Source: Rhodopseudomonas pseudopalustris
GTDB taxonomy: Bacteria; Pseudomonadota; Alphaproteobacteria; Rhizobiales; Xanthobacteraceae
Length of the DNA: 64,000 nucleotides
Direction: 5' to 3'
Assembly (NCBI RefSeq): GCF_900110435.1
Contig: NZ_FODT01000001.1
Span: 310,001 to 374,000, forward strand
Of this stretch, positions 3,186 to 50,725 are shown piece after piece. The notes beneath the pieces were generated by a model, which worked only from the letters and a program-made list of their open reading frames with translations, was not told the origin of the DNA and ran no database searches. The position numbers and the translations under genes are program-made. The stretch's first letter is position 1; the number at the start of each line of letters is the position of its first letter.

Positions 3186-3216
3186 AAACAAAAAAAGAGC
3201 CGCCGTTTCCGGCGGC
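3186..3216 (-). terminator. Rho-independent terminator, minus strand
   Basis: GCCGCCG (3199-3205) pairs with CGGCGGC (3210-3216) around a 4-base loop. On the minus strand it is followed by TCTTTTTTTGTTTG, a strong termination signal. It ends the DUF1192 transcript or the candidate small RNA. Confidence 0.75.
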
Positions 3217-3270
3217 TTTAAAGTTGATAACAGGGAGGCGTCAAAACAGAGTGGACAGGAGCCACTCGGT
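3186..3270 (-). ncRNA. Candidate small RNA or 3' UTR-derived RNA with anti-Shine-Dalgarno motifs
   Basis: In a gap of about 450 bases without a credible gene, the minus strand shows in order: a hairpin GAGTGG/CCACTC (3262-3267 with 3249-3254) whose loop reads CTCCTGT, an unpaired CCTCCC (3238-3233), and a GC hairpin followed by a long T-tract (3216-3186). This resembles alpha-proteobacterial sRNAs that carry CCUCC anti-SD segments. No clear promoter was found, so it could be processed from the 3' end of the DUF1192 transcript, which ends 250 bases upstream. The 5' end is a guess. Confidence 0.35.
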
Positions 3271-3308
3271 CCAAAGATGGACAAACAAAGTAATACCCCG
3301 GAAAGCTT

Positions 3309-3330
3309 AATCGCTCGTAAATGAGCGATT
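3309..3330. repeat. Inverted repeat AATCGCTC-N6-GAGCGATT
   Basis: Perfect 8-base arms at 3309-3316 and 3323-3330 with a 6-base centre. It could be a protein-binding site or an RNA hairpin upstream of the candidate small RNA. No regulator was recognised. Confidence 0.35.
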
Positions 3331-15117: not shown

Positions 15118-15192
15118 TGGTGGGCGCGACAGGGATCGAACCTGTGACCCCCTCGATGTCAACGAGGTGCTCTCCCGCTGAGCTACGCGCCC
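15118..15192 (-). tRNA. tRNA-Val (anticodon GAC)
   Basis: On the minus strand: acceptor stem GGGCGCG/CGCGCCC, D-arm GCTCAGCGGGAGAGC, anticodon arm CCTCG-TTGACAT-CGAGG with anticodon GAC, T-arm CACAGG-TTCGATC-CCTGTC, discriminator A and an encoded CCA at 15120-15118. A promoter lies just upstream. Confidence 0.97.
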
Positions 15193-15929: not shown

Positions 15930-16817
15930 ATGACCGAGTTCGAGGGTGAGTTTTCGCCCCCGTTCGAGATTGCCGAGCCTGCCGTCTGGCGCGCGCCGAT
16001 CATTTTCAATTCGCCGCACTCCGGTTCGGTGTATCCGCACGCCTTTCTCAACGCATCCCGGATCGACCTCGAGGCGCTGCAGCGCTCCGAGGATTCGTTC
16101 ATGGACGAGTTGATCTTGCACCTTCTCCACCAGGGCTTTCCGGTCGCCAGGGTGCACTTCCCGAGGTCATATATCGACGTCAATCGGGAGCCCTATGAAC
16201 TCGATCCGCGGATGTTCCACGGCCGGTTGCCGAGCTTCGCCAACACCCGCTCGATGCGGGTTGCCGGCGGATTGGGAACGATTCCCCGCGTGGTCGGCGA
16301 CGGCCAGGAGATTTACCGCGAACGGATCCCGATCGACGAGGCGCTCGGCCGGATCGAGACGCTGTACAAGCCCTATCACCGCGCGCTGCGCCAGCTGGTC
16401 AACCGGGCGCACCAGACCTACGGCGCCGTGATCCTGGTCGATTGCCACTCGATGCCCTCTGTGGGCATCGCCCGTGACGAGCCGCGACGGCCCGATATCG
16501 TGATCGGCGATCGCTATGGGACGAGCTGCGCCGCGCTGATCTCGGGCGTGGTCGAGGAAACGATGGCGGCACGCGGCTATTCGGTCGGCCGCAACAAGCC
16601 CTATGCGGGCGGCTTCATCACCGAGCATTACGGCAATCCGGCGAGCGGCCTGCATACCGTGCAGGTCGAGCTCAACCGCGCGATCTATATGGACGAACGG
16701 CTGCGGCAGCGGAGCGATCGGTTCGGCGTTGTCGCGGAAGATTTCAGCGTTCTGGCCGAAGCCCTCGCGGCGATCCCGCTGGCCGATCTCGGCCCGTTCC
16801 AGGCTGCCGCCGAATAA
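15930..16817 (+). CDS. N-formylglutamate amidohydrolase family protein
   Basis: 295 residues of the HutG-like (FGase) family, zinc hydrolases that release formate from N-formyl-glutamate or related formyl amides. Motifs include FNSPHSGSVYP (about 26-36), SYIDVNREPYELDP, VDCHSMPS and GGFITEHYG. No hut histidine-degradation genes are nearby, so the true substrate is uncertain. The ATG at 15930 gives the family N-terminus; the open frame continues to 15882. Divergent from cpdR, with hisN downstream on the same strand. Confidence 0.88.
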   Translation: MTEFEGEFSPPFEIAEPAVWRAPIIFNSPHSGSVYPHAFLNASRIDLEALQRSEDSFMDELILHLLHQGFPVARVHFPRSYIDVNREPYELDPRMFHGRLPSFANTRSMRVAGGLGTIPRVVGDGQEIYRERIPIDEALGRIETLYKPYHRALRQLVNRAHQTYGAVILVDCHSMPSVGIARDEPRRPDIVIGDRYGTSCAALISGVVEETMAARGYSVGRNKPYAGGFITEHYGNPASGLHTVQVELNRAIYMDERLRQRSDRFGVVAEDFSVLAEALAAIPLADLGPFQAAAE

Positions 16818-16898
16818 ACCGGATCACCCGCCGACCTGGAACAAAAAACAGACGTCGACGGCAACCAAGCCTGACAAGAAAACAAACCGGGCTGAAAA

Positions 16899-16931
16899 GA
16901 AAAAAGGGCCGCTTGCGATGGCAAGCGGCCC
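16899..16931 (-). terminator. Rho-independent terminator of the candidate small RNA
   Basis: A perfect 11-base-pair stem, GGGCCGCTTGC (16906-16916) with GCAAGCGGCCC (16921-16931), has a 4-base loop and is followed on the minus strand by TTTTTTCTTTT. On the plus strand no T-tract follows, so it acts for minus-strand transcripts. Confidence 0.8.
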
Positions 16932-16986
16932 AAGTCTAGGGAGGAAACGCCCAAGGAGGGCAGCGATAGCGCAAGCGCTACCGCAC
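16899..16986 (-). ncRNA. Candidate small RNA with two CCUCC anti-Shine-Dalgarno segments
   Basis: A complete minus-strand transcription unit of about 88 bases with no coding content: a promoter at 17021-16993, a 5' hairpin (GCGGTAGCGC with GCGCTATCGC), a small hairpin GCCC-TCCTT-GGGC exposing UCCUU, an unpaired CCTCCC, then an 11-base-pair terminator with T-tract. No minus-strand gene lies upstream, since both flanking genes are on the plus strand, so it is not a 3' UTR. The layout recalls cuckoo/alpha-r14 type sRNAs of alpha-proteobacteria; that comparison is from memory and not tested. Confidence 0.5.
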
Positions 16987-16992
16987 CGCAGC

Positions 16993-17021
16993 AATATGCG
17001 GCCGCGACGCACAAAGCGCAA
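16993..17021 (-). promoter_or_regulatory. Promoter of the candidate small RNA
   Basis: Minus strand -35 TTGCGC (17021-17016), 17-base spacer, -10 CATATT (16998-16993). It predicts a start near 16986, just before the first hairpin. Confidence 0.45.
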
Positions 17022-17265
17022 GTGTTTTTGAGCATTTTCCCATGCAAAAAACGCAGATCAGGCACCGGATCCGCACCGCGGGCGCATGATTTATTTGTGC
17101 CAAATCAATGAGATGAAAACCGCCCAGGGGTGCGACGTGCGACAAAACCGCCACGGTTCCCGACTCGCCAGAGTGTCGCAGGCAACCAAAAAGCGAACCA
17201 CTCGCATCGAGTATGTGAAAAATGTGAATGGCGGCTCGGTTGATGATTCAGCCTCTGGACCCGGG

Positions 17266-17358: not shown

Positions 17359-18141
17359 GTGACGGTCATCGATTTCGCCGCCTTTATCGGACGCCTCGCA
17401 ACGTCGTCCGGCGACACCATCCTGCCGTTCTTCCGCACCTCTCTCACGATCGACAACAAGAAGGCCGGCCGCGACTTCGATCCGGTGACCGAGGCCGATC
17501 GCGCCGGCGAGGCGGTGATGCGCCGGCTGATCAAAGGGAGTTTCCCCCAGCACGGCATCGTCGGCGAGGAGTTCGGCAACGAGCGCGAGGACGCCGACTA
17601 TGTTTGGGTGCTGGACCCGATCGACGGCACCAAATCCTTCATCGCCGGGTTTCCGGTCTGGGGCACGCTGATCGCGCTGCTGCACAAGGGTTCGCCGGTC
17701 TACGGCATGATGCATCAGCCCTACATCGGCGAGCGCTTCTCCGGCGACAATGGCGCTGCGTCCTATAAGGGACCCTCCGGCGAGCGCAAGCTGACGGTGC
17801 GGCGCTGCGCCTCGCTGAGGGAGGCGACGCTGTTCACCACCTCGCCGCTGCTGATGAACGACACCGACCGCGCCACTTTCGAGCGGGTGCAGGCCGAGGC
17901 GCGGCTGACCCGGTTCGGCGGCGACTGCTACGCCTATTGTATGCTGGCGGCCGGCCAGCTCGACCTCGTGATCGAGACCGAGCTGAAGCCCTACGACGTC
18001 GCGGCGCTGATCCCGATCATCACCGGCGCCGGCGGCATCATCACCACCTGGGACGGCCAGCCTGCGCAGAACGGCGGCCGCATCGTCGCCGCGGGCGACA
18101 AGCGGGTCCACGAAGCCGCGATGAAGATCCTCAACGGCTGA
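17359..18141 (+). CDS. hisN: Histidinol-phosphatase, inositol monophosphatase family
   Basis: 260 residues. The metal-dependent phosphatase motifs are EADRAGE, GEEFGNE, DPIDGTKSF (about 91-99) and, near the C-terminus, KPYDVAALIPI. The family also includes inositol monophosphatases; histidinol phosphate is favoured because alpha-proteobacterial HisN has this length and often lies near cpdR and an N-formylglutamate amidohydrolase gene. Histidinol phosphatase performs the penultimate step of histidine biosynthesis. The start is GTG with AAGGA six bases upstream. Confidence 0.85.
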   Translation: MTVIDFAAFIGRLATSSGDTILPFFRTSLTIDNKKAGRDFDPVTEADRAGEAVMRRLIKGSFPQHGIVGEEFGNEREDADYVWVLDPIDGTKSFIAGFPVWGTLIALLHKGSPVYGMMHQPYIGERFSGDNGAASYKGPSGERKLTVRRCASLREATLFTTSPLLMNDTDRATFERVQAEARLTRFGGDCYAYCMLAAGQLDLVIETELKPYDVAALIPIITGAGGIITTWDGQPAQNGGRIVAAGDKRVHEAAMKILNG

Positions 18142-50383: not shown

Positions 50384-50529
50384 CCGCACCGCGCCTTTTT
50401 GAGCTGGCTCAAGCGTGTTGTTACTCTCAAGCCACATCGCGACGCAATCCAGCGCCGTGGCGCTGCGACCGCACCTGTTCGCCGCCAAGTGCGAATTGAC
50501 TTTGCCTGATCCGATCCATCTAGATGATT

Positions 50530-50725
50530 GTGACGGTTCCCCTTCCGGGGATCAAAAGGGAATGCGGTGCGGACCTCTTCGGAGGACCAATGCCGCAGCT
50601 GTTCCCGCAACTGTAAGCGGTTCGACTTTCGTCGGAATGCCACTGGGAAACTCGGTCCTGGGAAGGCGACGAAAGCTAACACCCGCGAGCCAGGAGACCT
50701 GCCGTCATTCGTGGTCACACGCGAA
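50530..50725 (+). promoter_or_regulatory. Cobalamin (AdoCbl) riboswitch
   Basis: Conserved blocks appear in the right order: GGTTCCCC, TCAAAAGGGAATGCGGTGCG (about 50551-50571), GCCGCAGCTGTTCCCGCAAC and TGTAAGCGG, GCCACTGGGA, and the B12 box AGCCAGGAGACCTGCC (50688-50703). It lies about 100 bases before the TonB receptor gene. A CCTCG (50785-50789) downstream is complementary to the CGAGG ribosome site at 50819-50823, so translation control is conceivable. Confidence 0.92.

Follow-up and report, generated by a model that had tools for sequence, protein, structure and literature searches.

The question raised by this locus is which small RNA is encoded on the minus strand between two plus-strand genes of the window (the whole stretch of 64,000 nucleotides that was analysed), and what controls it. 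From the letters alone, an earlier note had described a self-contained gene with a promoter TTGCGC-17-CATATT, about 88 transcribed bases, an 11-bp terminator with a T-tract, and two segments able to pair with ribosome-binding sites: UCCUU, in the loop of a hairpin, and CCUCCC, in a linker. It had proposed a trans-acting, probably Hfq-linked regulator, had mentioned a similarity to the cuckoo/alpha-r14 RNAs, and had suggested a covariance-model search that included suhB-like models. The features of the locus are given below; papers are cited from excerpts throughout.

15930-16817, plus strand: N-formylglutamate amidohydrolase (FGase) gene, convergent neighbour (PF05013, E 8.3e-72)
16897-16986, minus strand: predicted alpha-r8 (MmgR/SisA-type) small RNA of about 90 nt (RF00519 match; promoter and conserved 5' hairpin used to predict the 5' end)
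16906-16931, minus strand: intrinsic terminator stem-loop of 11 pairs (terminator scan, sequence)
16938-16947, minus strand: unpaired family 10-mer UUUCCUCCCU, presumed seed (fold and RF00519 match; 10-mer as given in the excerpted PMC12559287)
16948-16962, minus strand: weak hairpin with UCCUU (16957-16953) in its loop (fold; RF00519 alignment)
16963-16984, minus strand: 5' hairpin of nine pairs, absent from the Rfam model (fold; covariation in 44 aligned copies)
16982-16990, minus strand: PhaR-type core, box 2 (TGCGGTGCG), at the predicted start (sequence motif, conserved in copies)
16993-16998, minus strand: -10 box CATATT (sequence; similar hexamers in copies, counted below)
17003-17011, minus strand: PhaR-type core, box 1 (TGCGTCGCG), within the -35/-10 spacer (sequence motif, conserved in copies)
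17016-17021, minus strand: -35 box TTGCGC (sequence; TTG conserved in copies, counted below)
17359-18141, plus strand: inositol-monophosphatase-family gene, divergent neighbour (PF00459, E 4.6e-54)

The anatomy described earlier was recovered almost unchanged: a minus-strand small RNA gene with its promoter, UCCUU loop, CCUCCC linker and terminator. The transcript is predicted to start at about 16986 and to end at about 16897, which turns the earlier figure of about 88 bases into about 90 nt. The 11-pair terminator stem, found both in the sequence and by the terminator scan, is followed directly by the T-tract TTTTTTCTTT, which runs to about 16897. In the fold, UCCUU occupies the loop of a hairpin and CCUCCC an unpaired linker, and the folding energy of 16890-17030 (-61.9 kcal/mol) is lower than that of every one of 200 dinucleotide shuffles (-46.79 ± 3.72, z -4.06). 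Because both neighbouring genes lie on the opposite strand, the small RNA is not a UTR of either, as had been claimed.

The two promoter boxes are present as described, with a spacer of 17 bases. A generic sigma-70 promoter scan, the same one that detected the terminator, returned no promoter at the locus; the promoter call is based on conservation. Among the matches listed, 40 dissimilar copies have the same box layout: 39 of them show TTG within 16 nt ahead of box 1, 30 show CTTG there, and 26 have a -10-like hexamer, as defined by an ad hoc pattern, between the boxes. The RpoD promoters of Bradyrhizobium are given as TTG-N16-18-TATA (PMC4842269).

The identity of the RNA was supplied by the suhB-like covariance model. 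In a cmscan search, Rfam family RF00519 (suhB/MmgR, alpha-r8) matches 16891-16968 at 75 bits against a cut-off of 41, over the whole model (positions 1-77 of 77). In a permissive scan with 24 matches at E up to 10, it is the sole match above its cut-off, the runner-up reaching 31.2 bits where 52 would be needed. The locus also carries the traits of the family, namely the unpaired 10-mer, the Rho-independent terminator and the adjoining FGase gene. Judged by its sequence, the RNA is thus the FGase-linked copy of alpha-r8 (called MmgR in Sinorhizobium and SisA in Caulobacter), a further member of a known family and not a new one.

Three other RNA elements were found in the window: a BjrC1505 small RNA at 3190-3328 on the minus strand (RF02356, 132.9 bits), about 13.6 kb from the alpha-r8 gene and likewise with unpaired CU-rich stretches; a tRNA gene at 15121-15192 on the minus strand (RF00005, 68.1 bits), with the anticodon GAC by eye; and a cobalamin riboswitch at 50517-50720 on the plus strand (RF00174, 127.4 bits).

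The RF00519 model begins at 16968 and has two stems only, and the 5' hairpin stands outside it. In 44 aligned copies, which are related to one another and represent those with a convergent FGase among 71 dissimilar copies with a start-site core (among the matches listed), the nine pairs are kept in 88.9% of cells compared with 75.6 ± 1.3 in shuffles, and 65 double changes were counted compared with 24.0 ± 4.8 (none of 500 shuffles as high). Seven of the nine pairs show a double change, a number reached by 7 of 500 shuffles, and pairing falls to 24-61% when the partner is slid by 1-3 columns. Since the alignment was selected for box 2, only the hairpin was judged on it. A review gives MmgR three stem-loops (PMC7143759), so the 5' hairpin probably corresponds to a known element that stands out more clearly here.

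Conservation of the motif and the terminator, on which the earlier reading had been made to depend, is borne out: of 61 genomes searched (including the genome that holds the window), 56 have an alpha-r8 match with E no worse than 0.001, and 51 have one above the cut-off. The family's 21-mer core is shared by contigs of many Bradyrhizobium and one Tardiphaga among the matches listed. The neighbours of the RNA gene are presumably the same gene pair as SMc04042 and SMc04043 of Sinorhizobium meliloti (inositol-monophosphatase family and FGase). The strand order HisN-like/RNA/FGase equals that given in the excerpted text for sm8=suhB of S. meliloti, SMc04042< RNA> SMc04043< (PMC2573895), and most alpha-r8 copies are reported to adjoin an FGase gene (PMC12559287). 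Among the matches listed, a convergent FGase lies beside 95 of the 137 copies with enough flank. All collected copies share the 21-mer that was searched, and later filters required GTTTCCTCCCT; copies with an altered seed are therefore not represented. The same genome contains a second copy above the cut-off (48.2 bits) and a third, weak one (30.3 bits). The second (L002 1501-1581, at C9:260398-260478) is flanked by a gene with a CxxCxxCC domain and one of the choloylglycine-hydrolase family. Elsewhere, among the matches listed, three copies (L054, L092 and L161) occupy a single short contig stretch, which suggests local duplication.

PhaR is the regulator that senses the stored carbon polymer. 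Boxes 1 and 2, which match the core of its published motif in the form used for the scans (YGCRNYGCR), lie 21 bp apart and flank the -10 box. To count such cores, 153 copies less than 85% alike upstream were kept from 199 distinct copies among the matches listed, and the 75 nt ending 18 nt ahead of the GTTTCC of the family core were scanned; this stretch takes in part of the 5' hairpin, so a few of the counted cores lie inside the RNA. At least one core was found in 104 of the 153 copies, compared with 21.2 ± 4.3 in dinucleotide shuffles (maximum 32), and at least two in 44, compared with 2.2 ± 1.4 (maximum 7). In a control stretch of 75 nt taken from farther upstream in the same copies, 14 had at least one core and two had at least two. 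No core was seen in the remaining 49 of the 153 listed copies; the boxes are thus common and not universal. With a shorter flank limit, which kept 154 of 200 copies among the matches listed, 39 of 50 spacings between neighbouring cores were 19-22 bp. At least two cores occur in 52 of the 95 listed copies with a convergent FGase compared with 6 of the 42 others, near relatives being counted. The promoter of the second copy in the genome has no pair of PhaR cores at 19-22 bp spacing, so the sibling copies may be controlled differently.

In S. meliloti, the mmgR promoter is bound by purified PhaR in a shift assay (PMC12542648), and the excerpted reports place the PhaR site at 3046679-3046699 and the RNA start at 3046712 (PMC12542648, PMC7143759). 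That site centres about 23 bases ahead of the RNA start, which is the place of box 1 here. The published site itself, with up to one mismatch, was found in none of 397 genomes of the order.

The genome that holds the window has a phaR gene and four phasin genes, two preceded by paired cores at a distance of 18 bp, one by a single core and one by none. The 18-bp pattern occurs at three distinct places in 5.27 Mb, two of which are these phasin promoters, and the 21-bp pattern at eight places, one of which is the small RNA promoter; the reversed-pattern control gave one in each case. A wider comparison took one genome from each of 24 other families of the order, without correction for ancestry. 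In this set, alpha-r8 is present above the cut-off in 14 of 17 with phaR compared with one of seven without (Fisher p 0.004); common descent, genome reduction, the quality of the assemblies and stricter filters in the genome search may have strengthened this association. All 14 genomes with both have a PhaR core upstream of at least one of the copies examined, the chance of a core being about 14% for a single copy (21.2 of 153 in shuffles). The sole holder of a strong alpha-r8 copy without a phaR hit, also across all 61 genomes (G058; copy L191, 64.2 bits), has no PhaR core upstream of that copy.

The alternative that survives these data best accepts the alpha-r8 identity and holds that the TGC-rich boxes are not PhaR operators, being either sites of another regulator or, for box 2, dictated in part by the beginning of the RNA hairpin. 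It would account for the overlap of box 2 (16990-16982) with the left arm (16984-16976) of the 5' hairpin, for the eight genomic places of a pattern built from a short, GC-rich core, and for the report that Caulobacter copies share no upstream motif (in the excerpted PMC12559287). Box 1, however, is conserved although it lies outside the RNA, the excess of cores stands against shuffles that keep composition, and paired cores recur in phasin promoters; the binding of S. meliloti PhaR to the mmgR promoter and the way in which boxes and alpha-r8 go along with phaR across genomes point in the same direction. This alternative is accordingly considered unlikely, though it keeps some weight, and the boxes are read in what follows as candidate PhaR operators.

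How the RNA would act can be approached through its relatives. According to the Caulobacter report, repression of a reporter by SisA depends on the 10-mer and on a target site ahead of the start codon; in an E. coli assay with Caulobacter Hfq, a point mutation in SisA or in the target abolishes this repression (PMC12559287). Because the family 10-mer pairs upstream of a start codon there, a translational mechanism is well founded by homology. The earlier proposal of a trans-acting, Hfq-linked anti-Shine-Dalgarno regulator likewise gains support, by analogy, from RF00519 membership, from the Caulobacter mechanism and from the hfq gene found in the same genome. In S. meliloti, as a review summarizes it, removal of the MmgR core raises PHB and the PhaP1 and PhaP2 proteins with their mRNAs unchanged, and mmgR is activated by NtrC and repressed by AniA/PhaR (PMC8401924).

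The exact complement of the 10-mer, AGGGAGGAAA, occurs five times in the genome, and two of the occurrences are the small RNA genes themselves. Of the other three sites, two are separated by 369 bp within one repeated stretch, and the third falls in a frame of 146 aa; by eye, in the matches of the whole genome, none of the three has a start codon within the following 15 nt. The four phasin start regions, as a group, pair with the RNA core no better than do 49 ORFs of the window: the fraction of the background at least as strong was 0.67, 0.82, 0.06 and 0.24 with the core, and 0.14, 0.78, 0.18 and 0.27 with a longer seed stretch. Eight phasin starts of one phasin type from other genomes of the genus, scored out of 28 further phasin loci by a script filter, rank at 0.10-0.82. 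These ranks, from a weak test in which start codons were partly guessed by script, lend no support to phasins as direct targets.

The terminator stands shortly beyond the 3' end of FGase, and this position, with the convergent FGase at 95 of 137 listed copies, might instead suggest that the RNA acts mainly in cis or forms the FGase 3' end or its terminator. This is very improbable: the RNA and the FGase frame do not overlap, the RNA has its own conserved promoter, a convergent FGase was not seen for 42 of the 137 copies among the matches listed, and pairing in trans has been reported for Caulobacter (PMC12559287). That the RNA belongs to another anti-Shine-Dalgarno family (alpha-r14/NfeR1 or cuckoo/CcsR), as the earlier note suggested and as unpaired CU-rich motifs might allow, is extremely improbable: RF00519 scores 75 bits, and the 24 matches with E values up to 10 include none under those names, a negative that presupposes such models in Rfam and a scan in which weaker overlapping members of the same clan are hidden.

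The circuit proposed for the FGase-linked alpha-r8 RNA builds on features present in the sequence, namely family membership, gene order, structure, conserved boxes and the co-occurrence with phaR. From these we infer transcription of the RNA, its binding by Hfq, the binding of PhaR to its promoter and the existence of targets. The locus would make an RNA of about 90 nt consisting of the 5' hairpin, the weak hairpin, the unpaired seed and the terminator. Hfq would hold the RNA, and the seed would pair with the ribosome-binding sites of several mRNAs, lowering their translation. PhaR most likely represses transcription of the RNA through the two operator boxes around the -10 box; granules of polyhydroxybutyrate (PHB) would titrate PhaR and release the RNA from repression, and the released RNA may then damp the carbon-storage response. 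The proposal as a whole is considered probable. A wider one, for which the balance is only modestly favourable, is that across Rhizobiales the FGase-linked alpha-r8 gene has long belonged to the PhaR regulon, with a pair of operators about two helical turns apart in the spacer and at the start site. PHB stores would thereby gate an anti-Shine-Dalgarno RNA, the RNA gene would tend to be missing where phaR is missing, and the start-site operator would double as the first arm of the conserved 5' hairpin.

The family assignment of the earlier finding is corrected, and what was a guess becomes a testable circuit. In the literature searched, PhaR-type boxes in pairs were found reported for no alpha-r8 gene from outside S. 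meliloti; a 2016 survey of the family and a 2018 study of AniA and NtrC, cited there, may already cover part of these findings. In the excerpts consulted, the main text of the PhaR paper on B. diazoefficiens (PMC10888616) does not contain the terms sRNA or small RNA, and the Methylorubrum paper (PMC6520949) did not examine sRNAs and merely raises the possibility.

MmgR of S. meliloti shares with the present RNA the RF00519 match, the 10-mer, the terminator, the strand order of the neighbours and a PhaR-type site in the -35/-10 spacer; by its published description, MmgR is 77 nt long with one PhaR site listed, whereas about 90 nt and two boxes are predicted here. SisA-D of Caulobacter crescentus (alpha-R8) belong to the same family and have the same 10-mer, and sisA is FGase-linked; in contrast to the present locus, their authors found no conserved upstream motif and near-constant expression of SisA, with control exerted by the sponge RNA CrfA (PMC12559287, in excerpt). 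The PhaR-controlled phasin promoters described for B. diazoefficiens phaP1 (PMC10888616) and S. meliloti phaP1 and phaP2 (PMC12542648) have two TGC-rich boxes near the core promoter, as here. The boxes reported here differ in standing at a small RNA promoter and in their spacing of 21 bp, compared with 18 bp at two phasin promoters of the same genome. Alpha-r8 RNAs are widespread in Alphaproteobacteria, and in the excerpted literature their control was found described only for Sinorhizobium and Caulobacter, where it apparently differs; the recurrent paired PhaR-type boxes and the co-occurrence with phaR suggest that sensing of the carbon store is the common input to these RNAs in Rhizobiales.
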